Source: a virus
Direction: 5' to 3' (one strand)
DNA: 40,428 nucleotides
IMG/VR virus record: IMGVR_UViG_3300042924_002680
Span: 1 to 40,428 of that record
Shown here: positions 1-40,428 of the stretch, piece after piece
Layout of the letters: each line of letters starts with the position of its first letter
How positions within the stretch are numbered: position 1 is the stretch's first letter
Notes under the pieces: model-generated
What the model saw: only the letters and a program-made list of their open reading frames with translations
Told to the model about the DNA's origin: nothing
Database searches by the model: none
Program-made: the position numbers and the translations under genes

Positions 1-13
1 TGCGCGAACAACC
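1..13. repeat. 13-bp terminal direct repeat, left copy
   Basis: The first 13 bases (tgcgcgaacaacc) are identical to the last 13 bases of the window. This is the size expected of a cohesive-end (cos) overhang, and the terminase is of the lambda gpA family that makes such ends. The repeat could also be an assembly overlap of a circular contig, but 13 bases is shorter than usual assembly k-mers. Confidence 0.7.
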
Positions 14-7098: not shown

Positions 7099-7929
7099 AT
7101 GAGGACCCAGACCGTTCTCGTCACGCCTGCGATGGCGCGCGAGATGCTCCAGAAGAACCCACGCAACCGCAGCTTACGCCGCAGCAACGTCCGCTATTTG
7201 GCCACCGAGCTGAGATCGGGCCGTTGGCGCCTGACCCACCAGGGCGTTGCCGTCGCCACCGATGGCACGCTGCTCGATGGCCAGCACCGGCTGAGCGCCA
7301 TCATCGAAGCCGACACCTCGGCGCTGATCAACGTCAGCTACGACTGTGACCCTGAGCTGTTCACGGTGATCGACACCGGTTCAGCACGCACCAGCGCTGA
7401 TGTGCTGCGCACTGCTGGAGCGGTCAACCGGCAGGAAGCCACGACAGCCGCCACCTGCAAGCTGGTGCACTTGTACCGGCGGGCGCCCAACTACACCTGG
7501 ACCGGTGAGGTGTCGCGCATTTCGTCAGCTGTTGTGCTGGCCGAACACCAGCGAAATCCTGAGCTGTATCACTGGGCTGTGCGGTTGGCCCAGCGTGCGC
7601 GCAATGAGTTCCTCGCACTCCGCCTGAAGTCTGCGACCGCTGCATTCGCATTCATTGCAGCCGAGGATGGCCGCGCCATCGGGCTGCAGCAGGACGACAT
7701 TGAGGAGTTCGTGATGAGCGTGGCGAGCGGCGCCAACTTGGCGAAGGGTGATCCACGGATGACGTTCCGCCAGCAGCTGATCAACGGCTGGACGCCTTCA
7801 AGCGGCGCTCGCAGCTCGCAGCTGTGGCTGGCCTGCTGGCTTCGGCTGTTTAACCAGCGCTGGAGCGGCACGCAGCTCAAGGTGTTTAAGACGCCAGCAG
7901 TGATGCCGATGCCCAAGCTGATGCTTTGA
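7099..7929 (+). CDS. ParB-fold 'DGQHR' family protein
   Basis: A 276-aa protein starting at ATG 7099. Residues about 5-75 carry the ParB/DGQHR-like signature: NVRYLATELRSGRW, then GTLLDGQHRLSAIIEAD, then VIDTGSARTSADVL. The rest is helical (FRQQLINGW, LKSATAAFAFIAAEDG). Such proteins are frequent in phages of many hosts. The ParB fold binds nucleotides or DNA, and some members have nuclease or NTPase activity, but the role in phages is unknown. A second ParB-fold protein is encoded at 39720-40352. The gene ends two bases before the stop of a convergent small gene. Confidence 0.7.
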   Translation: MRTQTVLVTPAMAREMLQKNPRNRSLRRSNVRYLATELRSGRWRLTHQGVAVATDGTLLDGQHRLSAIIEADTSALINVSYDCDPELFTVIDTGSARTSADVLRTAGAVNRQEATTAATCKLVHLYRRAPNYTWTGEVSRISSAVVLAEHQRNPELYHWAVRLAQRARNEFLALRLKSATAAFAFIAAEDGRAIGLQQDDIEEFVMSVASGANLAKGDPRMTFRQQLINGWTPSSGARSSQLWLACWLRLFNQRWSGTQLKVFKTPAVMPMPKLML

Positions 7930-13112: not shown

Positions 13113-13628
13113 TTAGCCCTTGCTGGCGGTTACGGCGAGATCCGCGTTGTAACGGCCAACTTCGGCATAGCTGCGCTCCGGTAGCCCAGCGGTGCAGATG
13201 AACAGCATCTGGCCGATCTTCATGTTCGGCCACAGCGGCAGCGGGTGCAGGCGCCGCGCGTTCTTCAACTCCAGCGTCAACCGCGAGCCGTACCAGCCGC
13301 AATCAGCAAAGCCGGCGTGGCTGTGCTCATAGCCCTCGCGCGCGCGGCTGGACTTGAGGAAGAACAGCCCGCAGACATGATCGGGCATGCAGAAGATCTC
13401 GCGGGTCTCTGCCAGGCAGAACTCACCGGGCTGCAGCCAGTAGGGGTCCTCGGCGGTGTGGCCCGTGATGCCGACGATCTGCAGCTCAGGGTGCTCGGCC
13501 ACCTCGATCATGATCCGATCACCCAGCGTCAGATCCAGGCTGGCGGGGTTGATCAGATCGGGGTTGAAAGGGTTGACCATCGCGTGCTGCTCGCACAGGC
13601 GACGGATCTCATGGTCAGGAAGGATCAC
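13113..13628 (-). CDS. dcd: dCTP deaminase / dUTPase-fold protein
   Basis: A 171-aa protein starting at ATG 13628. It converts dCTP to dUTP (Dcd), supplying dTTP synthesis, or belongs to the related bifunctional or dUTPase forms. Motifs: PASLDLTLGDRI near residue 28, LAETREIFCMPDHVCGLF, the KSSRAREG nucleotide loop with Ser and Arg, HAGFADCGWYGSRLTLELKN with the catalytic Glu, and the Gln-rich IGQMLFI strand. Length is close to the usual 180-190. It is the last gene of the late operon, ahead of the terminator. Its coupling to lysis genes is unusual for a nucleotide enzyme, but similar placements are known in cyanophages. Confidence 0.85.
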   Translation of the reverse strand: MILPDHEIRRLCEQHAMVNPFNPDLINPASLDLTLGDRIMIEVAEHPELQIVGITGHTAEDPYWLQPGEFCLAETREIFCMPDHVCGLFFLKSSRAREGYEHSHAGFADCGWYGSRLTLELKNARRLHPLPLWPNMKIGQMLFICTAGLPERSYAEVGRYNADLAVTASKG

Positions 13629-19026: not shown

Positions 19027-22000
19027 TCAGACCTCCCTGCCGTAGCCGATGGCGGTGTAGGTGAACTGGCGGCTCACGGCGCTGCCGGCACTGTTCCTAA
19101 AGGTTACCTGGAAACCTGTGCGCGTCACGGAAGCGATGGTGAAGTAGTCGCCTGTGGCCATGTTGAAGCCAGTGATACCGACCGATGGTGCCTCGTAGAA
19201 GGCATTTCCAAAGACTACCGAATAAGTGCCAACACCACTGGTGAGAGCCGCAGACTGCTCGATACGCTGCTGCAACTCCATTTCAGCGCCCAGCTCAGTG
19301 ATGATGATGTTCTGGTCCTCGTCGGTGCTGGTGGCAATCGTCTTGAACTGAAAGCCGCGGCCCCGCACGATGGCATTACTGAACTCCCGCCAGCCGCCCC
19401 AGGTCGGCGTGCCGCTGGGGTCGTCCTGAGTGGTGCGGACATAGGTGGCAGCGTTGACGCGATCGCCGCCGGTGCCGTCGATGTAGTCCCAGGTGTCGAT
19501 GTCAGAGGTTTGGTCGTCCCAGAAGTCACCGGGCAGATAAGGGAAGGTGACGAGCCGGCGGCGCAGATTGCAGTCGAACACACCGGGGAAGGCGTAGGTG
19601 GAGCCAAACTCGTACTCACCCGTTGGCAGCACACCGCCCACGCTGTCGATCGAAGCCAGGCCATCCCAGTTGTTATCGGTGGCCATTGCGTCAACGGCCA
19701 CGCCGCTGCTGAGCATGATGCCGTCCAGCCCTCCTACCTCAGCCAGACTGGAGACATAGAACATGTCGGTGTAGTTGCCGTTGAACGGCGGTGTCTCGGT
19801 CTCCTCGGCGTAGGTTTGCACCAGCAGGCGCGGCTGCGGTGTCGGCAAATCGACCACCACGGTGGTATCCGCCAGCGAGCGGCGACCGCCATCGTCCTCG
19901 AACTTGACCAGGTAGGTGCCCTCCAGCAGCGGCACCTGCTTCTGCGTCTGGCTGCCGGCAGCAGCCGCCACGATCTCCTGCGACTCCTCCCAGACGGCGC
20001 CGGTCAGCTCAACGTTGTGGCGGATCAGCACCTTGCCGCCGAGCAGCACGTCTAGCTCAGTACTGCGGTCCCAGCTCAGGATGGCGCTGGCTTCGTCAAT
20101 CGGGATCAGCGATAGGCCCGTCACGCTTTCGGGTGGAGCGGTCTTGCCGAACGCCTGCACCGTCAGCTGGGCCGGTTGCACCGAACGTCGCAGGCCCACG
20201 CTGATGCTGTAGACCTCGACCTGATAGGTGCCGGCAGCGGTGTCGAGGATCTCGTAATCAGGGCGGCGCTGCGTGGTGGACGACCAGTTGCCGTTCTGTG
20301 CACGCCAGCGCACCAGGTAATCGTTGACGCCGACCACCGGCTGCCAGCTGACGATGAGTTTCGACAATGCCCGACCGTTCAGCTCGTAGAGCGCCTCAGT
20401 GGCCTGCAGGTTGCCGGGCGTCTCCGGGATGATGTTGAGGTCGGTGATGTCGCGCTGCTGCAGTTCAGCGCCGCGTTCGACGTAGCTGTATTTGCTGGCG
20501 TTGTAAGCCAGCGCGGTGATCGAATATTTGGCGCCGTCTTCCTCTTGAACCGTCAGCACCCGCCAGGTGGATGTCTCGATCTGGTCGTTCTGCACCACCC
20601 AGACGCTGTTGGTGTTGGGCGCCGTGGTGAAGGCAGACGAGACGTACAGGATCACGCCGACGCGGTTGGTGATGTTGCGCGTCTCCACCGTGCCATCAGG
20701 CAGGATCACGCTCACCGTTGCGTTATCGGTAGGGAGGTCCGTGGCATCATCCACCGTCACGGTTGTGGCTGAAGCCGAAATGATCCGGCCGCCGCGGCGC
20801 ACGCCGGCACGCACCGGATCGCTGATCTCGATGATCTGGCCGGGCCTGACAAGCACGCCTGCGTCGATGCTGGCGGTAAAGCTGACCACCTCTGACTCGT
20901 ACCGTTCGGAGTAGAGCAGCCAGTCACCGATGCGGCTGGCCTGGCCGCGGGAGGTGCAGGCGAACGCCGAGATCTCGGTCTTGATGACGCCGTACTTGGC
21001 GATATTCTCCGAGTCCTCCACCACCTCGTAGGCGATGTCGCGGGTGTCGAGATCGAGGTAGCTGACCACCGCCACGGTGGGGCGCGTTTTGCGGCTGCTG
21101 CCCTGGTAGCTGAAGCCCTCGTCAGAGACGTTGGCCAGGGTGAACAGGTAGCTGGTGTCGGCGGGCTTGTCCTGGCTGATCGTGAGCGCACCAGTGCTCC
21201 AGTACGGCATGGCCCGGAACACCGAGCACATGTCGTTGATCAGCTTGTACGCCTCCTCTGGCGTCTGGATGTTGATGTTGCAGCTGAAGCGCGGCTCCAG
21301 CCCGCCAAAGCCATCGGGCACCAGCTCGCCGCAGTATTGGCTGGCTGAATAGAAGGCCCACTTGTCGAGCTGCGCCGCCTGGATGTGATCACCGAACCCG
21401 TAGCGGGTGGAGGTGAGCAGGTCGAACAGGATCCACGCGGGGTCTGTGGTCCACGCTGCAGCGCCAAAGGTGCCGGACCAGACGCCGCTGTAGGTCAGCC
21501 GGCCGGTGGTGCTGTCCACCGTGGCGTTGTTGGGGATCGCCACCTTGATGCCGCGCACCAGGTAGCTGCGCGCCGGGATGGAGTTGAACTGTTCCGCATC
21601 CACACGCATCGCCACCAACGCGCTGTTGGGGTAGCGCAGCTTGGCGTAGATGATCTCGGTGTAACTGGTCCAGCTAAAGGCGTTGAGCAGCTTGGCGCTG
21701 CTGCTGTCGGCCGTCACGCGCGTGACCTTGATGTCAACCGGGAAGGCGCCGCTCAGGTTGACCAGGTAGTCGCGCTGGTATTGATTAGCCGTGCGGCCGC
21801 TGATCGTGTCGGTGATGACGGTGGTGTAGCCGCCGGAGTTGTACTGCACGGCGATCTGCAGCTGAACGCTCGTGCCCTCGATGTCGCCGGCGTCGGTGAA
21901 CAGTTGAAGCTGCGGCACCGTGATGGTCACGCGCGCAGCATTCACGTTGGTATCGGTGATCGAGCGGACTACCGGCGTGGTTTGCTGCACCGTCACGCCA

Positions 22001-22761
22001 ACAGTCTTCTCATCCTCCACCTCTGAAGCGATGGGGATAAAGGTCTGGTTTTGCGTGCCGTTGCGCGTGTAGACAGTGACGTTCTGGAAGTTGTAGGTGC
22101 CGTCTGCGTTCTGCAGCGGGGTGTTATTGATGAAGATCGACTTGTGGCCATCCTTCAGGCCCTCGATCTCGCCCTCGCTGATCAGGTCAACCAGGTTGGC
22201 GTATTGCGTGCTGTTGAGGTTGTCGGACGCCTCGGTTGGGGTGCGGGTGCTGCCGCCACCTCCACCGCCCTTGCCGCCGTCACCGCCGCCACCACCCGAT
22301 CCGGCGATGCCCAGGCCCAGGCCAGCGTTATGAACGCGGATGCCGCCTGCGATGAAGGTGTGATGACCTTCAACCGTCAGGTTGTAGACGGTGCCGCGGC
22401 TGTGCTCGATGCACTCCACGATGGGCCGCAGGTGGCCGTTCTCATCCACCAGGCAGTCGTCAGCGCCGAGCGTGCCGATCTCAACGAAGGCGTTGAACTG
22501 ATTGAGCACCCAGTGGTTCGGGGTGGCATCGAGCACCGCGCCGCCCCACAGGCGGTAACGCACCACGCGCTCGTTTTCGTGGACGTGAACCTTGAGCACC
22601 GTCGCCTGGTGCAGCTCACCTTGGTCGTCAAAGCTGAGCACCTGATCGCCAGGGTGCAGCGCCTCGATGGCACGCAGCCCGTCAGGCGTGCGCACCAGCG
22701 TGTGCCCCAGAAAGCACCCGCCGCCGCCACCTCCACCACCTGCGCCAGCAAGACGTGCCAT
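19027..22761 (-). CDS. J: Tail tip/host specificity protein J with inserted Hint domain
   Basis: A 1244-aa protein from ATG 22761, whose first base is the last base of the gpI stop (TGATG). It is the central tail tip protein that carries fibres and contacts the receptor. From residue about 170 it follows lambda J: ASDNLNSTQYANLVDLISEG and GLKDGHKSIFINNTPLQNADG. The middle has VRWRAQNGNW and FN3-like domains (WQPVVGVNDYLVRW, ILSWDRSTELDVLL). A 130-residue Hint/intein-like domain lies near the N-terminus between Gly-rich stretches (see separate entry). If the domain splices, the mature protein would be about 1114 aa. Confidence 0.85.
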   Translation of the reverse strand: MARLAGAGGGGGGGGCFLGHTLVRTPDGLRAIEALHPGDQVLSFDDQGELHQATVLKVHVHENERVVRYRLWGGAVLDATPNHWVLNQFNAFVEIGTLGADDCLVDENGHLRPIVECIEHSRGTVYNLTVEGHHTFIAGGIRVHNAGLGLGIAGSGGGGGDGGKGGGGGGSTRTPTEASDNLNSTQYANLVDLISEGEIEGLKDGHKSIFINNTPLQNADGTYNFQNVTVYTRNGTQNQTFIPIASEVEDEKTVGVTVQQTTPVVRSITDTNVNAARVTITVPQLQLFTDAGDIEGTSVQLQIAVQYNSGGYTTVITDTISGRTANQYQRDYLVNLSGAFPVDIKVTRVTADSSSAKLLNAFSWTSYTEIIYAKLRYPNSALVAMRVDAEQFNSIPARSYLVRGIKVAIPNNATVDSTTGRLTYSGVWSGTFGAAAWTTDPAWILFDLLTSTRYGFGDHIQAAQLDKWAFYSASQYCGELVPDGFGGLEPRFSCNINIQTPEEAYKLINDMCSVFRAMPYWSTGALTISQDKPADTSYLFTLANVSDEGFSYQGSSRKTRPTVAVVSYLDLDTRDIAYEVVEDSENIAKYGVIKTEISAFACTSRGQASRIGDWLLYSERYESEVVSFTASIDAGVLVRPGQIIEISDPVRAGVRRGGRIISASATTVTVDDATDLPTDNATVSVILPDGTVETRNITNRVGVILYVSSAFTTAPNTNSVWVVQNDQIETSTWRVLTVQEEDGAKYSITALAYNASKYSYVERGAELQQRDITDLNIIPETPGNLQATEALYELNGRALSKLIVSWQPVVGVNDYLVRWRAQNGNWSSTTQRRPDYEILDTAAGTYQVEVYSISVGLRRSVQPAQLTVQAFGKTAPPESVTGLSLIPIDEASAILSWDRSTELDVLLGGKVLIRHNVELTGAVWEESQEIVAAAAGSQTQKQVPLLEGTYLVKFEDDGGRRSLADTTVVVDLPTPQPRLLVQTYAEETETPPFNGNYTDMFYVSSLAEVGGLDGIMLSSGVAVDAMATDNNWDGLASIDSVGGVLPTGEYEFGSTYAFPGVFDCNLRRRLVTFPYLPGDFWDDQTSDIDTWDYIDGTGGDRVNAATYVRTTQDDPSGTPTWGGWREFSNAIVRGRGFQFKTIATSTDEDQNIIITELGAEMELQQRIEQSAALTSGVGTYSVVFGNAFYEAPSVGITGFNMATGDYFTIASVTRTGFQVTFRNSAGSAVSRQFTYTAIGYGREV
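22327..22716 (-). other. Hint (bacterial intein-like) domain inside J
   Basis: Residues 16-145 of J. Block A is CFLGHTLVRTPDG with the nucleophile Cys16, followed by AIEALHPGDQVLSFD. Block B is ATPNHWVL, with the TxxH signature (Thr80, His83). The C-terminal blocks are VYNLTVEGHHTFIAGG and IRVHN, ending in His144-Asn145. The next residue is Ala146, not the Cys/Ser/Thr of standard inteins, so this matches type A bacterial intein-like (BIL) domains, which cleave or splice with varied +1 residues. No homing endonuclease is inserted. Eight Gly precede it and a Gly-rich stretch follows (GGGGGDGGKGGGGGG). Confidence 0.82.
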
Positions 22762-35890: not shown

Positions 35891-37762
35891 TCACCAGCTA
35901 TTGACGAATGCCGACGCCGCGGCCTGCCTCGATCTTAGCTGCGGCTTGCGCGCCTCTGCATCGACCTTCTCCAGCTTTCTTTCCAGCTGGTCCCAGATCG
36001 TTCTGCGGTCGTACCGCTGGTACATCAGATTTAGCGCCGCGTAGGCATAGACCAGACAATCCAGCGCCTCGTTACGCCTGTTGGCTGGCAGCACCCATTC
36101 GCGTACCGGGAAGCCGGCCCGGTTGGTGCGGAGCATCTGTTTCTCTGCCGTCAGCTGCTCGAAATACTCCACCGTCGTCTTCATGTGGAAGTGCAAGAAG
36201 CCCGCGCCCGCGTCGTTATGCTTCAGCCGCGCGAACAGCGTGGTCTTCACCGTGTCGGCGCCAACGGGGTAGACCAGCGCACCGTGCTTGAGCACCTTGC
36301 CGCGGTAGTTCACGTCCACCTTGCTGGCCTTGCCGATCGGTGGCTTGCCGCGTTGGCTCTGGCCCTTGATGGCCACCACTCCCTGCCGGCCGCGTTCGCG
36401 CGCGTACTGGTAGACCTCCGCCGTGAAGTGACCACCGGAGTCGATGGCCACCACGTCGGGGCGGAGCTTGTGCCCCAGCGCATGCGGCCATTCCCGCAGC
36501 ACCACCTCGTCCAGCTGCTTCCACAGCTCCGGCCGGGCCGGGTCGCCGTAGATCTCCTGGTGGTCCAGCAGCCAGCCTTCTTCTTCGCGGCCCCAGGCCC
36601 AGACGCTGATCGCCAGGCGGTTGTCCTGCACGTCCACGCCGACCGTCAACGCCAGCGCAGCATCTGGCAGCATCGCCGGCTCGTACTGCTCGCACCGCTC
36701 CAGCAGCGCCTCGGCGCTCACCTTGCTGGCGTAGTCCTCCTCCCAGGTCTCGCCCAGCACGGTGTTGACCCAGGTCTTCAGCCGCGGCGCATCGCCCTTG
36801 CTCCGCAGGAAGTCCTCAACGATCTCCTCCCAGCTCTTCCAACCCAGCGGGCTGTAAAGCGACGACAGGTGGAAACCGGCGGTCTTGCCATCGCCAGGCG
36901 CCGTAGCGCGCCACTCACCAGCCGCCAGAATCTGCGTCTTGTGCGATTCCGGGAACTGCTGCTTGCACGCCTCGCACTCGTACATCACGGTGCTCGGGTC
37001 GTTGTCGGCCCACTTCAGCTGATGCCATTTCAGCCATTGCTTCACGCCGCAGTGAGGGCAAGGCACGAAGAAACGCCGCTGGTCGCTCAGCAGATATTCC
37101 GACTCGATCCGGCTGAAGTCCTTCACCGTCGGCGTCGAGGTCATGAAGATCTTGCGCCGGCTGAAGGTGGTGCTCCGCCGTTCTGCCAGCGTCACCGGGT
37201 CACCTTCACCGTCCACATCGCTCGGGAAGGCATCCACCTCGTCGAGGAAGATGTACCGGCACGGTGTCGAGCGCAGGCCCGTGGCGCTGTTCGCCCCGGT
37301 CAGGATCATGATCCCGCCGGGGTACTCCTTGCTGAACATCGTGTTGCCGGAGTCCCGCGAGCGGGCAGGGGCCACCTTCTCAGCCAGGCACGGTGTCTCG
37401 GTGATCAGCGATTCCAGCCGCTGCTTCGACAGGCGCTTGGCCATGTCCACCGTGGGCTGCACCATCAGCATCGGGCCCGGTGCGTGCGCGATCACATAGC
37501 CGAGCCAGTTGCTGCCAGCTTCCGTCTTGCCCAGCTGCGCGCCGGCCATCAGCACCACCCGTTGCACCGGGCTGGTGGTGCTCAGGCAGTCCATCACGTC
37601 CTTGAGGTAAGGCGTCCTTTCTGTCCGCCACGGGCCCGGCTCTGCGCTTGCCTTGCCGCTCAGCATGCGATGGCCATCGGCCCAGGCGCTAACCGTCAGC
37701 TCAGCCTCAAACCGCAGCGACTCGACGCATACCTCAATCAGCTCATCAATCGCTGAGGCCAC
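35891..37762 (-). CDS. terL: Terminase large subunit (lambda gpA type)
   Basis: A 623-aa protein with GTG start at 37762. It cuts concatemers and drives DNA into proheads. Motifs: Walker A AGAQLGKTE (residues 73-81), Walker B YIFLDEVDAFP (Asp174, Glu175), a zinc-finger pair CPHC...CEAC at about 230-262, and the nuclease part with VGVDVQDNRLAISVWAWG, VVAIDSGGHFTAEVY and NRRNEALDCLVYAYAALN. Length and order match the gpA/GpA-like group, which makes cohesive ends. This fits the 13-bp repeat at the window ends. It overlaps the small subunit gene by 17 bases. Confidence 0.92.
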   Translation of the reverse strand: MASAIDELIEVCVESLRFEAELTVSAWADGHRMLSGKASAEPGPWRTERTPYLKDVMDCLSTTSPVQRVVLMAGAQLGKTEAGSNWLGYVIAHAPGPMLMVQPTVDMAKRLSKQRLESLITETPCLAEKVAPARSRDSGNTMFSKEYPGGIMILTGANSATGLRSTPCRYIFLDEVDAFPSDVDGEGDPVTLAERRSTTFSRRKIFMTSTPTVKDFSRIESEYLLSDQRRFFVPCPHCGVKQWLKWHQLKWADNDPSTVMYECEACKQQFPESHKTQILAAGEWRATAPGDGKTAGFHLSSLYSPLGWKSWEEIVEDFLRSKGDAPRLKTWVNTVLGETWEEDYASKVSAEALLERCEQYEPAMLPDAALALTVGVDVQDNRLAISVWAWGREEEGWLLDHQEIYGDPARPELWKQLDEVVLREWPHALGHKLRPDVVAIDSGGHFTAEVYQYARERGRQGVVAIKGQSQRGKPPIGKASKVDVNYRGKVLKHGALVYPVGADTVKTTLFARLKHNDAGAGFLHFHMKTTVEYFEQLTAEKQMLRTNRAGFPVREWVLPANRRNEALDCLVYAYAALNLMYQRYDRRTIWDQLERKLEKVDAEARKPQLRSRQAAASAFVNSW

Positions 37763-38252
37763 TCAAGCCCTCCAATGCCTGCCCGATTTCTTTCAGGAGC
37801 ATGGCATGGATTACAGCTTGGTCTTTCTCAGCGGCAAGGATCGGCGCCACGCGGTCCGGGATCGTGCGCAGTGCATCGCGCACACCCATGTGCAGCTTGG
37901 CCAGCTTCAGCTTCAGCTCATCCTTATCCACCAGCTTGCCGCTGCGCTGCCGGAACTCCAGCTCGGTCAGGCGTGCGCTGAATGCTTCACGCGCAGCACG
38001 CGACACCGCAAAGCTCGGGATAGCCGCCTCACGCGCCTTGCGTGCCTGCAGCGCTGCGTCGATGTCGGGCCCACCGTTGCGCCCGCCGCGGTCCGGCGCT
38101 GATGCGCCATCCAACTCACGGTCAGCCTGCGCCGGGTCGATCTCGTAGCCGCGGCCCACCTTCTTTGCGCTTGGGATCTTGCCGGCCTTGATCGCATCCG
38201 AGATCGTCATCTTTGAGACGCCTCGGTGCTTGGCATACTCCGAAGCGTTCAT
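37746..38252 (-). CDS. terS: Terminase small subunit (Nu1-like)
   Basis: A 168-aa protein from ATG 38252. Residues 1-45 hold an HTH (NASEYAKHRGVSKMTISDAI, KAGKIPSAKKVGRGYEIDPA), as in lambda Nu1, which recognises the packaging site. A long helical part follows (AREAFSARLTELEFRQRSGK, LKLKLAKLHMGVRDALRTIP) for assembly with the large subunit. The start shares one base with the stop of the 2OG oxygenase gene (TGATG), so the upstream modification genes and packaging genes are one operon. Confidence 0.83.
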   Translation of the reverse strand: MNASEYAKHRGVSKMTISDAIKAGKIPSAKKVGRGYEIDPAQADRELDGASAPDRGGRNGGPDIDAALQARKAREAAIPSFAVSRAAREAFSARLTELEFRQRSGKLVDKDELKLKLAKLHMGVRDALRTIPDRVAPILAAEKDQAVIHAMLLKEIGQALEGLSGLSD

Positions 38253-39025
38253 CACAAGGCGTGGAAGGCGTCCAACGCATACCACACCAGGCTGTTGCGG
38301 TAGCCGCCAGGGTGCGTCGGCACGATGGGCGTGACGCCGTGCATGTTCCGCCACGCTGGGTAGACCAGCAGGGAGTTGTCGGCGCTGTTGAAGGTCACGT
38401 CATAGTCCGGGACATACAGGTTCCCGCCGGTGCTGTTGCGCCGCTTCGTGATGATGCAGTTCACCGCGCCCTTCACATTCAGGTTGTCCTGGTGGATGGC
38501 CGCGGCGATGTTGTAGTTGCTGATGCTGCTGGTGAACAAATCAGCGAAGCGCCACTCCTCCGGCACCCGCGCTTCCACCGCCTGCCGGTGCACCTGGTAC
38601 ACATCCGGGCAGACCTGTTCCACCAAGCCCAGGCATTCGCGGCCCGCCATCGTCATCGCCTTCACGAACGTCCGCGCGCTATCGACCGCATGCACGCTGC
38701 TCTTGGTGGCGTAGCTGCGCCGCATGTGCGGCTTCGGGGGAATGCTGCCAATGATGCAGCTGTACTGGCGCACATCTTTGTCGCCGTCGCCGTGCAGCCC
38801 GCTGCTGCGCCGCATCTCGGACTTCGGCACGCGGGTGCTGTTCAACTCCGCATCCGCCACGTTCACCAGCTTCGCTAGCCGCTCCGGCAGCTTCGCCAGG
38901 TAGAAGCCGATCGGTTTGCCATCCACCACGAACAGGCTGTCCTCAAACAGCGTCGGCGGTCGCTCCAGCGGCTGATCGCCAATCTTCACGCTGTGCTCGA
39001 CCTGCTTCAGCTCGATTGTTTTCAT
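38252..39025 (-). CDS. TET/JBP-like 2OG-Fe(II) dioxygenase
   Basis: A 257-aa protein from ATG 39025 (TGATG junction with the FkbM gene). The C-terminal half has the 2OG-Fe(II) oxygenase core: AIHQDNLNVKGA with the His178-x-Asp180 iron pair, TGGNLYVPDYDVTFNSADN as the central strand, WRNMHGVTPI with the distal His229, and GYRNSLVWYALD with Arg243 for 2-oxoglutarate. The 'GG.L..P.Y......D.L......HGV.P.....R.S.V.Y' pattern is that of the Tet_JBP family, which oxidises methyl groups of 5-methylcytosine or thymine in DNA. A protein or small-molecule hydroxylase is the alternative. The N-terminal half (FEDSLFVVDGKPIGFYLAKL, SCIIGSIPPKPHMRRSYATK) may help substrate choice. Confidence 0.72.
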   Translation of the reverse strand: MKTIELKQVEHSVKIGDQPLERPPTLFEDSLFVVDGKPIGFYLAKLPERLAKLVNVADAELNSTRVPKSEMRRSSGLHGDGDKDVRQYSCIIGSIPPKPHMRRSYATKSSVHAVDSARTFVKAMTMAGRECLGLVEQVCPDVYQVHRQAVEARVPEEWRFADLFTSSISNYNIAAAIHQDNLNVKGAVNCIITKRRNSTGGNLYVPDYDVTFNSADNSLLVYPAWRNMHGVTPIVPTHPGGYRNSLVWYALDAFHAL

Positions 39026-39723
39026 CAGTCTTTCCCGTAGCAGAAGACGTTCGTGCAGGCCGGGAACCACTCCGGCTGCCATTGCACATAGGCCCGGTCG
39101 TGGTAATGCACGCTGCTCCACGCGCACTCGACGCGGTAACTCTCGAGCTGCTTATCGAGCACCGCCCACAGCCGCGTCAGGCTCGGGTCGATGTCGAAGC
39201 TCCACTCGTACATCAGCTTGTCGAACACCACCTCGGTGTGCTCGAGGATCGGCATCTCGGCGCCTTCGATGTCCATCTTGCAGCCGCTGAACCCACGCGC
39301 GGCCTCATCGAACCTGGCGCACGGCACCCTGATGCCCAGCTTGTTCCACTTCTTGACGATGCTGTTCCGCCACACGTTGTTGTTGTTGCCGATGAACAGC
39401 GTCACCTCATCGCGGTCGTCGTGCACCAGCGCCCGCTGCTTCACGTCCGCGCAAAACCCGTTGAGCTTCAGGTTCTTGGCGATCATCTCGCAGTTGTACG
39501 GGTCCGGCTCGTAGGCCACCACGTCAGCGCCCAGGCTGCAGGCCAACAGCGTGAAGGCGCCGACGTTGCCGCCGCAGTCCATCCACCGCTCGCCCGGCAG
39601 GATTCGCATCCCGCGCTGCTGGTACACGCCGCGGCCGATCACCTCCTGAAAGGTCTTCAGGTCGCTGAAGCCTGGCCGGTGCCAGAACTTGATCCCGTTG
39701 ATCTCGCTTTGCTCCAGCTTCAC
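39025..39723 (-). CDS. FkbM-family SAM-dependent methyltransferase
   Basis: A 232-aa protein with GTG start at 39723 (GTGA overlap with the ParB-like gene). It has the Rossmann-like SAM motifs: ERWMDCGGNVGAFTLLACS, VVAYEPDPYNCEMIAKNLKL, and KMDIEGAEMPILEHT, the FkbM-type 'D.EGAE..IL'. FkbM enzymes usually O-methylate sugars or small molecules. In phage clusters with TET/JBP-type oxygenases a methyltransferase could cap a hydroxyl made on DNA. Alternatively it acts on host glycans or capsid sugars. No DNA cytosine methylase motifs (PCQ, ENV) are present. Confidence 0.8.
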   Translation of the reverse strand: MKLEQSEINGIKFWHRPGFSDLKTFQEVIGRGVYQQRGMRILPGERWMDCGGNVGAFTLLACSLGADVVAYEPDPYNCEMIAKNLKLNGFCADVKQRALVHDDRDEVTLFIGNNNNVWRNSIVKKWNKLGIRVPCARFDEAARGFSGCKMDIEGAEMPILEHTEVVFDKLMYEWSFDIDPSLTRLWAVLDKQLESYRVECAWSSVHYHDRAYVQWQPEWFPACTNVFCYGKD

Positions 39724-40352
39724 AGCTTTGCCTTCTCCGCCTTGAGCTTGTCGATCAGCATCATGCCGACGTAGGCGTCCTGCGACCGCCAGAACTTCAC
39801 CAGCTCCTGGGCCTCCTCGTAGTGCTCTGGCTCGAACTCGATCTGGATCGCCTTCTTCACGCCGGCGGCCATCTCGTTGAGCTGCTCGTCCATGTCCTCC
39901 TCGTCCAGCACCGAGTAGTCCGGCATCTCAGCGAAGTCTGGAAGATTCTCGCCCCAGCCCAGCAGCGTCAGGTCGAAGCCGTCGTCATCAAGCGCACTCA
40001 GCTCGGACTTCAGCAGCTCATCGTCCCAGCCACTGGTGAGCGCCAGCTGGTTGTCCGCGATGATGTACGCCCGCCGCTGGCGTTCGCTCAGGTGGTCAAG
40101 CACCACCACCGGCACCTGGCGTAGCTCCAGCTCCTTCGCTGCAGCCAACCGGCCGTGACCGGCCACGATGCCGTCGCCGCTATCGACCAGGATCGGGTTG
40201 GTGAAGCCGAACTCCACAATCGACGCTGCGATGTGGCCGATCTGCTCTTTGCTGTGCGTGCGCGCGTTGCGCTCGTAGGGCTTCAACCGCTCGATGGGCC
40301 AAAGCTCGATGCGCTTGGCCATTGCGATTGTCAGCTGGGGATCGTCGCTCAT
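39720..40352 (-). CDS. ParB-like nuclease-fold protein
   Basis: A 210-aa protein from ATG 40352; ATG 40322 (MAKRIELWPIERLKPYERNA) is possible. Residues about 12-100 are a ParB/Srx-like domain: LKPYERNARTHSKEQIGHIA, ASIVEFGFTNPILVDSGDG, IVAGHGRLAAAKELELRQVP with the GHGR motif, and YIIADNQLALTSGWDDELL. In many phages this domain is fused to a DNA methylase. Here the methylase half is missing and a helical C-terminus is present (IQIEFEPEHYEEAQELVKFW, VGMMLIDKLKAEK). It is the first gene of the late operon, with aggag upstream. Confidence 0.82.
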   Translation of the reverse strand: MSDDPQLTIAMAKRIELWPIERLKPYERNARTHSKEQIGHIAASIVEFGFTNPILVDSGDGIVAGHGRLAAAKELELRQVPVVVLDHLSERQRRAYIIADNQLALTSGWDDELLKSELSALDDDGFDLTLLGWGENLPDFAEMPDYSVLDEEDMDEQLNEMAAGVKKAIQIEFEPEHYEEAQELVKFWRSQDAYVGMMLIDKLKAEKAKL

Positions 40353-40415: not shown

Positions 40416-40428
40416 TGCGCGAACAACC
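40416..40428. repeat. 13-bp terminal direct repeat, right copy
   Basis: Same 13 bases as positions 1-13. After joining, the genome would be 40,415 bases around, with the gpZ-like gene directly downstream and the late operon directly upstream of the joint. Confidence 0.7.

Follow-up and report, generated by a model that had tools for sequence, protein, structure and literature searches.

A phage packaging operon with a ParB, FkbM and TET/JBP cassette whose middle gene is exchangeable

What could be made by three genes that run directly into the terminase genes of a phage? The question is raised by the IMG/VR virus record IMGVR_UViG_3300042924_002680, analysed here over its full length of 40,428 bp (the window). 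Near its right end, five genes lie head to tail on the minus strand. They encode a ParB-like protein, an FkbM-family methyltransferase, a TET/JBP oxygenase and the small and large terminase subunits (TerS and TerL). A sequence-only reading had proposed that the first three form a DNA hypermodification cassette joined to the small terminase gene. The overlapping genes are present as described, and their coordinates and overlaps were verified. ParB and FkbM share 4 bases, FkbM and the oxygenase 1 base, the oxygenase and TerS 1 base (38252), and TerS and TerL 17 bases. All three cassette genes are under strong purifying selection, with nonsynonymous divergence (dN) of 0.02-0.07 and synonymous divergence (dS) of 0.23-0.64 relative to their nearest relatives. 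The reality of the cassette is confirmed, far beyond chance. The finding that stands out most is the exchangeability of the gene that separates ParB from TET. As to function, the three genes very probably act by oxidising a base of the phage's own DNA and then methylating it. More specifically, we lean towards the view that the cassette makes 5-methoxymethyl-deoxyuridine in the phage's own DNA, through the action of the TET/JBP oxygenase and then of FkbM.

The oxygenase and its two partner proteins

The oxygenase gene starts with the ATG at 39025, which abuts the FkbM stop codon. The GTG at 39127 is only a mechanical start of the open reading frame. In the 257-residue protein thus defined, the residues previously pointed out (H178, D180, H229 and R243) are correctly numbered. 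An alignment of 39 homologues, drawn from marine, freshwater and actinobacterial phages, shows no variation at these four positions. In a non-redundant set of 93 homologues, 91 keep the full HxD...H...R pattern. The protein matches Tet_JBP (Pfam PF12851) with E=9.5e-8 and 31.9 bits, just under the gathering score of 34.9. All 39 aligned oxygenases (39/39) match this family and no other, and two relatives score above the cut-off. A PDB search with the single sequence gave nothing meaningful, and an alignment profile was required. With the profile of the 39 homologues, TET2 (E 0.003) and CMD1 (0.025) were the only credible solved structures. In the profile alignment, the HRD motif of TET2, its distal His and its Arg align with the iron triad and the 2-oxoglutarate-binding Arg of the oxygenase.

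The AlphaFold2 model of the oxygenase has a predicted local distance difference test (pLDDT) score of 90 and a predicted template modelling (pTM) score of 0.88. Its 26 best fold matches in the PDB are all TET2, CcTet, CMD1 or NgTET1, with FTO and AlkB ranking later. A placement among prolyl- or sugar-hydroxylases, named beforehand as the outcome that would count against the proposal, is ruled out by the profile and fold searches, both of which point to TET/CMD1. Judged from homologues and model, the oxygenase is firmly assigned to the TET/JBP family. The label "queuine tRNA-ribosyltransferase" attached to phrog_6059 is a naming error, since its members match only Tet_JBP. Many phage GenBank records carry the same wrong label for TET/JBP oxygenases, which keeps the family from view.

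The second protein shows the S-adenosylmethionine (SAM) motifs that had been noticed in its sequence. It scores above the curated cut-offs of both FkbM models, PF05050 (Pfam; E=3e-9, 37.7 bits, cut-off 22.7) and TIGR01444 (E=5.6e-14, 52.8 bits, cut-off 37.7). Like other members of the family, it has a SAM-binding core and a KMDIEGxE motif; across its homologues the DxGGNxGAF SAM motif is invariant and KMDIEGxE is present. The model (pLDDT 92.8) shows a Rossmann methyltransferase fold without a close solved relative. FkbM members of known chemistry are mainly alcohol O-methyltransferases. Unlike the members known to us, which act on sugars and polyketides, the window FkbM belongs to a distinct phage subfamily, phrog_28597.

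The ParB-like protein matches ParB_N (Pfam PF02195) above cut-off (E=1.7e-7) and phrog_15396 with E=2.8e-53. In the ParB-methylase family phrog_498, which is 633 residues long, its match is confined to residues 29-181. It is a stand-alone N-terminal domain that lacks the methylase usually fused to it, as had been remarked. The CmoX cytosine system, too, comes with a ParBc protein (PMC12783734). Our guess is that the ParB-domain protein serves as a DNA-binding or targeting partner.

An exchangeable gene between ParB and TET

Relatives were collected from IMG/VR in two ways. Scanning through TET gave 148 stretches by strict patterns, and a wider scan confirmed at least 560 out of 600 candidates. 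An FkbM-based scan gave 185 relatives, 80 of which were kept. Locus counts are numbers of contigs and include redundancy. The order ParB-FkbM-TET is found in all the kept loci (80/80). A ParB homologue lies directly upstream of the middle gene in nearly all relatives with sufficient flank. The cassette stands beside GpA-type and unrelated terminases. In the cultured Prochlorococcus siphophages MED4-184 and MED4-117 it directly precedes the terminase genes, and the cultured Prochlorococcus phage P-HS2 has the same TET and FkbM genes.

The position between ParB and TET, which we call the slot, varies among the 148 loci of the TET scan. It holds FkbM in 78 loci, a TET-associated glycosyltransferase (TAGT) of the PF20691 type in 39, a P-loop kinase in 6, a kinase with a glutamine amidotransferase and an amino acid:DNA transferase (ADDT) in 3, and a GT-B-like protein in 3. 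Nothing is found there in 11 loci, and the contig edge is reached in 5. In two further loci, TAGT lies just upstream of ParB and a nucleoside diphosphate (NDP)-sugar epimerase follows TET. In the remaining one, L182, FkbM occurs together with an ADDT, an oxidoreductase-like protein and a kinase. With near-copies (94% identity) taken out, the commonest slot gene is still FkbM (33/73).

A tree of 93 TETs requires at least 18 changes between FkbM and non-FkbM slots, 16 of which are forced by well-supported branches; this is a quick tree, with support from the SH-aLRT branch test only, and some of the changes lead to an empty slot. Protein distances correlate less well between TET and FkbM (r=0.29) than between TET and ParB (r=0.61), a difference that modular transfer of FkbM would produce.

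The slot also yielded observations of separate interest. The ParB-[kinase, class II glutamine amidotransferase, ADDT]-TET arrangement occurs in environmental phages (L168, L193, L201). A slot gene of about 294 codons (L171:4045-5004, L179:4120-5004, L184:4120-5004) has no Pfam match and looks by eye like a GT-B glycosyltransferase; its product is a candidate new tailoring enzyme. The NDP-sugar epimerase genes directly after TET (L028:2397-3335, L029:4286-5224) possibly indicate a non-glucose sugar on the base.

Two known arrangements resemble that of the window. The five-gene system of Rhodococcus phage Tonitrus includes ParB, a Tet-like protein, an aGPT-PPlase2/ADDT protein and a 5-hydroxymethyluracil (hmU) kinase (PMC11955845). 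As in this thymidine-hypermodification cluster, the window has a ParB-domain gene followed by a TET/JBP gene near the terminase and the genome end, and the two TETs are homologous (28.7% identity, E 4e-17). In contrast, the window has no kinase or ADDT/aGPT-PPlase, and FkbM stands in their place. The ParB-TAGT-TET cassettes (PF20691) have an identical layout and closely related ParB and TET proteins, but FkbM occupies the slot of TAGT in the window, and the two were not found together in the records tested.

What the cassette may make in phage DNA

In the proposed pathway, the TET/JBP oxygenase would hydroxylate the C5-methyl group of thymine in phage DNA after replication, giving hmU. FkbM would then O-methylate the hydroxyl with SAM, giving 5-methoxymethyl-deoxyuridine at some T positions. 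The ParB-domain protein would probably recruit the enzymes to DNA. Modification is likely to occur before or at packaging, since the genes adjoin the genome end within a packaging/structural operon. The likely benefit would be shielding from host nucleases, or capping of hmU. Hydroxymethyl nucleotides made before replication were rejected as a source, the thymidylate-synthase/hydroxymethylase family being absent from all records searched, the window included (42/42).

Oxidation of a base methyl group followed by O-methylation had already been suggested from the sequence. It gains support from the TET/CMD1 placement and from the exchange of slot genes. The FkbM step was at that time guessed from the neighbouring position of the genes. 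It is now backed by the invariant gene order and the alternation of FkbM with TAGT and with kinase/ADDT sets, and its chemistry remains a prediction. Since the other occupants of the slot tailor hydroxymethyl pyrimidines, the most likely substrate of FkbM is the hydroxymethyl group made by TET. Most simply, it would use the same handle as TAGT, hmU kinase and ADDT. The hmdU DNA kinases act on 5-hydroxymethyl-deoxyuridine (5hmdU) in phage DNA (PMC7653180), and TAGT is present in T6-like phages (PMC13390438). DNA containing 5hmdU alone resists only 8.3% of the enzymes tested (PMC7653180), and this weak protection gives a reason for further tailoring.

The scheme has a parallel in base J of kinetoplastids, where JBP oxygenases (JBP1/2) hydroxylate thymine in DNA and JGT completes the synthesis (PMC6449724). 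There the hydroxyl is tailored after its formation, as is proposed for the phage. Here, however, methylation would replace glucosylation, and the system belongs to a phage and includes ParB. The CmoX cytosine carboxymethylation system of phages is also a two-step base hypermodification, often with ParBc in the operon, but its chemistry differs and it has neither TET nor FkbM (PMC12783734).

Several gene families were searched for in the window genome. C5-cytosine methylase (PF00145) and TAGT (PF20691) were not found, in agreement with the absence of a 5-methylcytosine (5mC) methylase and a glycosyltransferase noted from the sequence. Searches of the window genome for N6/N4 methylase, ADDT (PF18724) and hmU DNA kinase (PF18751) were likewise negative. 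These absences are informative because the window is probably a complete genome (see below).

Several points weigh against the proposed pathway. To our knowledge, FkbM enzymes act on hydroxyls of sugars and polyketides, not on DNA bases. The FkbM model finds its nearest folds among Rossmann methyltransferases of a generic kind, and the TM-scores are low. For the kinases in the slot there are weak matches to general P-loop kinase models only; the curated hmU-kinase family is not matched. Some close relatives, L009 for example, have no slot gene, so that tailoring is dispensable. Finally, the company of FkbM in L182 means that it might use a later intermediate there.

This last point leads to the best surviving alternative, a minor possibility in our view, in which FkbM methylates another group on phage DNA: a carboxyl made by TET (as a methyl ester), an added amine or amino acid, or a host-added sugar. 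TETs are able to oxidise past hydroxymethyl, and L182 does join FkbM to an ADDT, an oxidoreductase-like protein and a kinase. Against it, most FkbM cassettes, including that of the window, lack ADDT and TAGT, which leaves only TET products as acceptors, and the alcohol O-methylation typical of FkbM fits a hydroxyl. Nor do we favour as acceptor a sugar attached by a TAGT of the phage, as TAGT was not found in any of the 15 FkbM-carrying records tested.

A second alternative keeps the two steps but starts from host-made 5mC; the product would be 5-methoxymethylcytosine, placed where the host methylates. The target had been left as thymine or host 5mC; thymine is now favoured, and the 5mC part fares less well. 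The best solved relatives of the oxygenase are TET2, CcTet and CMD1, and the characterised cellular TETs use 5mC. The record holding L174 does contain a C5-cytosine methylase. It is the only one to do so among 41 relatives: with positive controls, PF00145 was not found in the other 40, two cultured phages included, so that dense modification would have to depend on the host. Moreover, ADDT/kinase sets of the thymidine-hypermodification type occur beside TETs of the window's family. Both observations make thymine the preferred target over 5mC, and we regard a 5mC start as unlikely, slightly more so than another FkbM acceptor.

The two remaining alternatives are both improbable. FkbM could be unrelated cargo, methylating for example a host glycan or the capsid, while TET alone makes hmU. 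Other phages do carry FkbM genes away from TET, and the slot gene is missing in about 7% of the TET-scan loci. Cargo would not be expected, however, to keep a fixed position across unrelated terminase types; the close relatives of this FkbM always sit between ParB and TET, in a slot otherwise filled by base-tailoring enzymes. A sparse mark near the cohesive (cos) end, steering terminase cutting or packaging rather than shielding the whole genome, would suit a ParB gene that comes first after a cos-like end (ParB is likewise gene 1 in phages Tonitrus and LilMcDreamy) in a cassette directly preceding TerS-TerL, but many relatives have the cassette inside contigs, with different terminases and other genes upstream of ParB, and in related actinophages such systems are interpreted as modifying the whole genome (PMC11955845).

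We thus return to 5-methoxymethyl-deoxyuridine as the preferred product. That a widespread group of aquatic phages, including cultured Prochlorococcus siphophages, carries an O-methylated hydroxymethyl pyrimidine in their DNA, most likely this one, with FkbM recruited as a base methyltransferase, appears to us an evenly balanced proposition. We know of no earlier report of such a natural DNA base. Full-text literature searches for FkbM together with either TET/JBP or DNA modification turned up no paper. The cassette is a variation on known phage TET/JBP hypermodification, and the newness of its FkbM version is provisional. If the proposal is true, a new natural DNA base would be made in two enzymatic steps. 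In phage TET systems, ParB+TET would form a constant chassis to which one or another tailoring enzyme is added, and a single gene would predict the final modification. A methyl cap would be small and uncharged and would block later glycosylation or phosphorylation, a strategy unlike the known bulky or charged modifications. An FkbM active on DNA could also be a useful tool in sequencing, where it would cap hydroxymethyl pyrimidines. The existence of cultured carriers (P-HS2, MED4-184, MED4-117) makes the prediction directly testable.

Gene map, genome ends and host

The positions of the cassette, the terminase genes and the terminal repeats are collected in Table 1.

Table 1. Cassette, terminase genes and terminal repeats of the window
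Feature	Position	Strand	Description
ParB-like gene	39720..40352	-	210 aa; stand-alone ParB N-terminal-domain protein
FkbM gene	39025..39723	-	232 aa, GTG start; FkbM-family SAM methyltransferase, predicted O-methyltransferase of hydroxymethyl base
Oxygenase gene	38252..39025	-	257 aa; TET/JBP 2-oxoglutarate/Fe(II) oxygenase
Terminase small subunit (TerS)	37746..38252	-	168 aa, ATG at 38252; phrog_57 E=4.1e-27
Terminase large subunit (TerL), lambda gpA type	35891..37762	-	623 aa; PF05876 + PF20454, E about 1e-96
Terminal repeat (13 bp), left copy	1..13	.	identical to right copy
Terminal direct repeat (13 bp) TGCGCGAACAACC, right copy, putative cos end	40416..40428	.	63 bp upstream of ParB start

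The same 13 bp, TGCGCGAACAACC, stand at both ends of the record. Three independent contigs (L005, L007, L008) have their first base at this same position, which lies 76 bp before the ParB gene. Identical ends and shared contig starts resemble assembled cohesive ends, and the window is therefore probably the whole of a linear genome whose first gene is ParB. The record is classed by IMG/VR only as "linear".

The host may be a cyanobacterium, as suggested by terminase and/or tape-measure matches between the window and the Synechococcus siphophages S-CBS3, S-CBS1 and S-LBS1. The terminases of AcaML1 and Wolbachia WO match the window as well. A GTDB scan with strict patterns found no cellular relatives and gives no host assignment.

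Three other genes of the window deserve mention. A dCTP deaminase is encoded at 13113-13628 (-) and may raise the supply of dUTP and thymidine. The homologue of tail-tip protein J (19027-22761, -) begins with a HINT/intein-like domain (PT-HINT, E 1.5e-11), which is unusual in such a protein. The gene at 7099-7929 (+) is transcribed against the main operon; its product matches phrog_5931 (E 2e-52), a conserved phage family without an assigned function.

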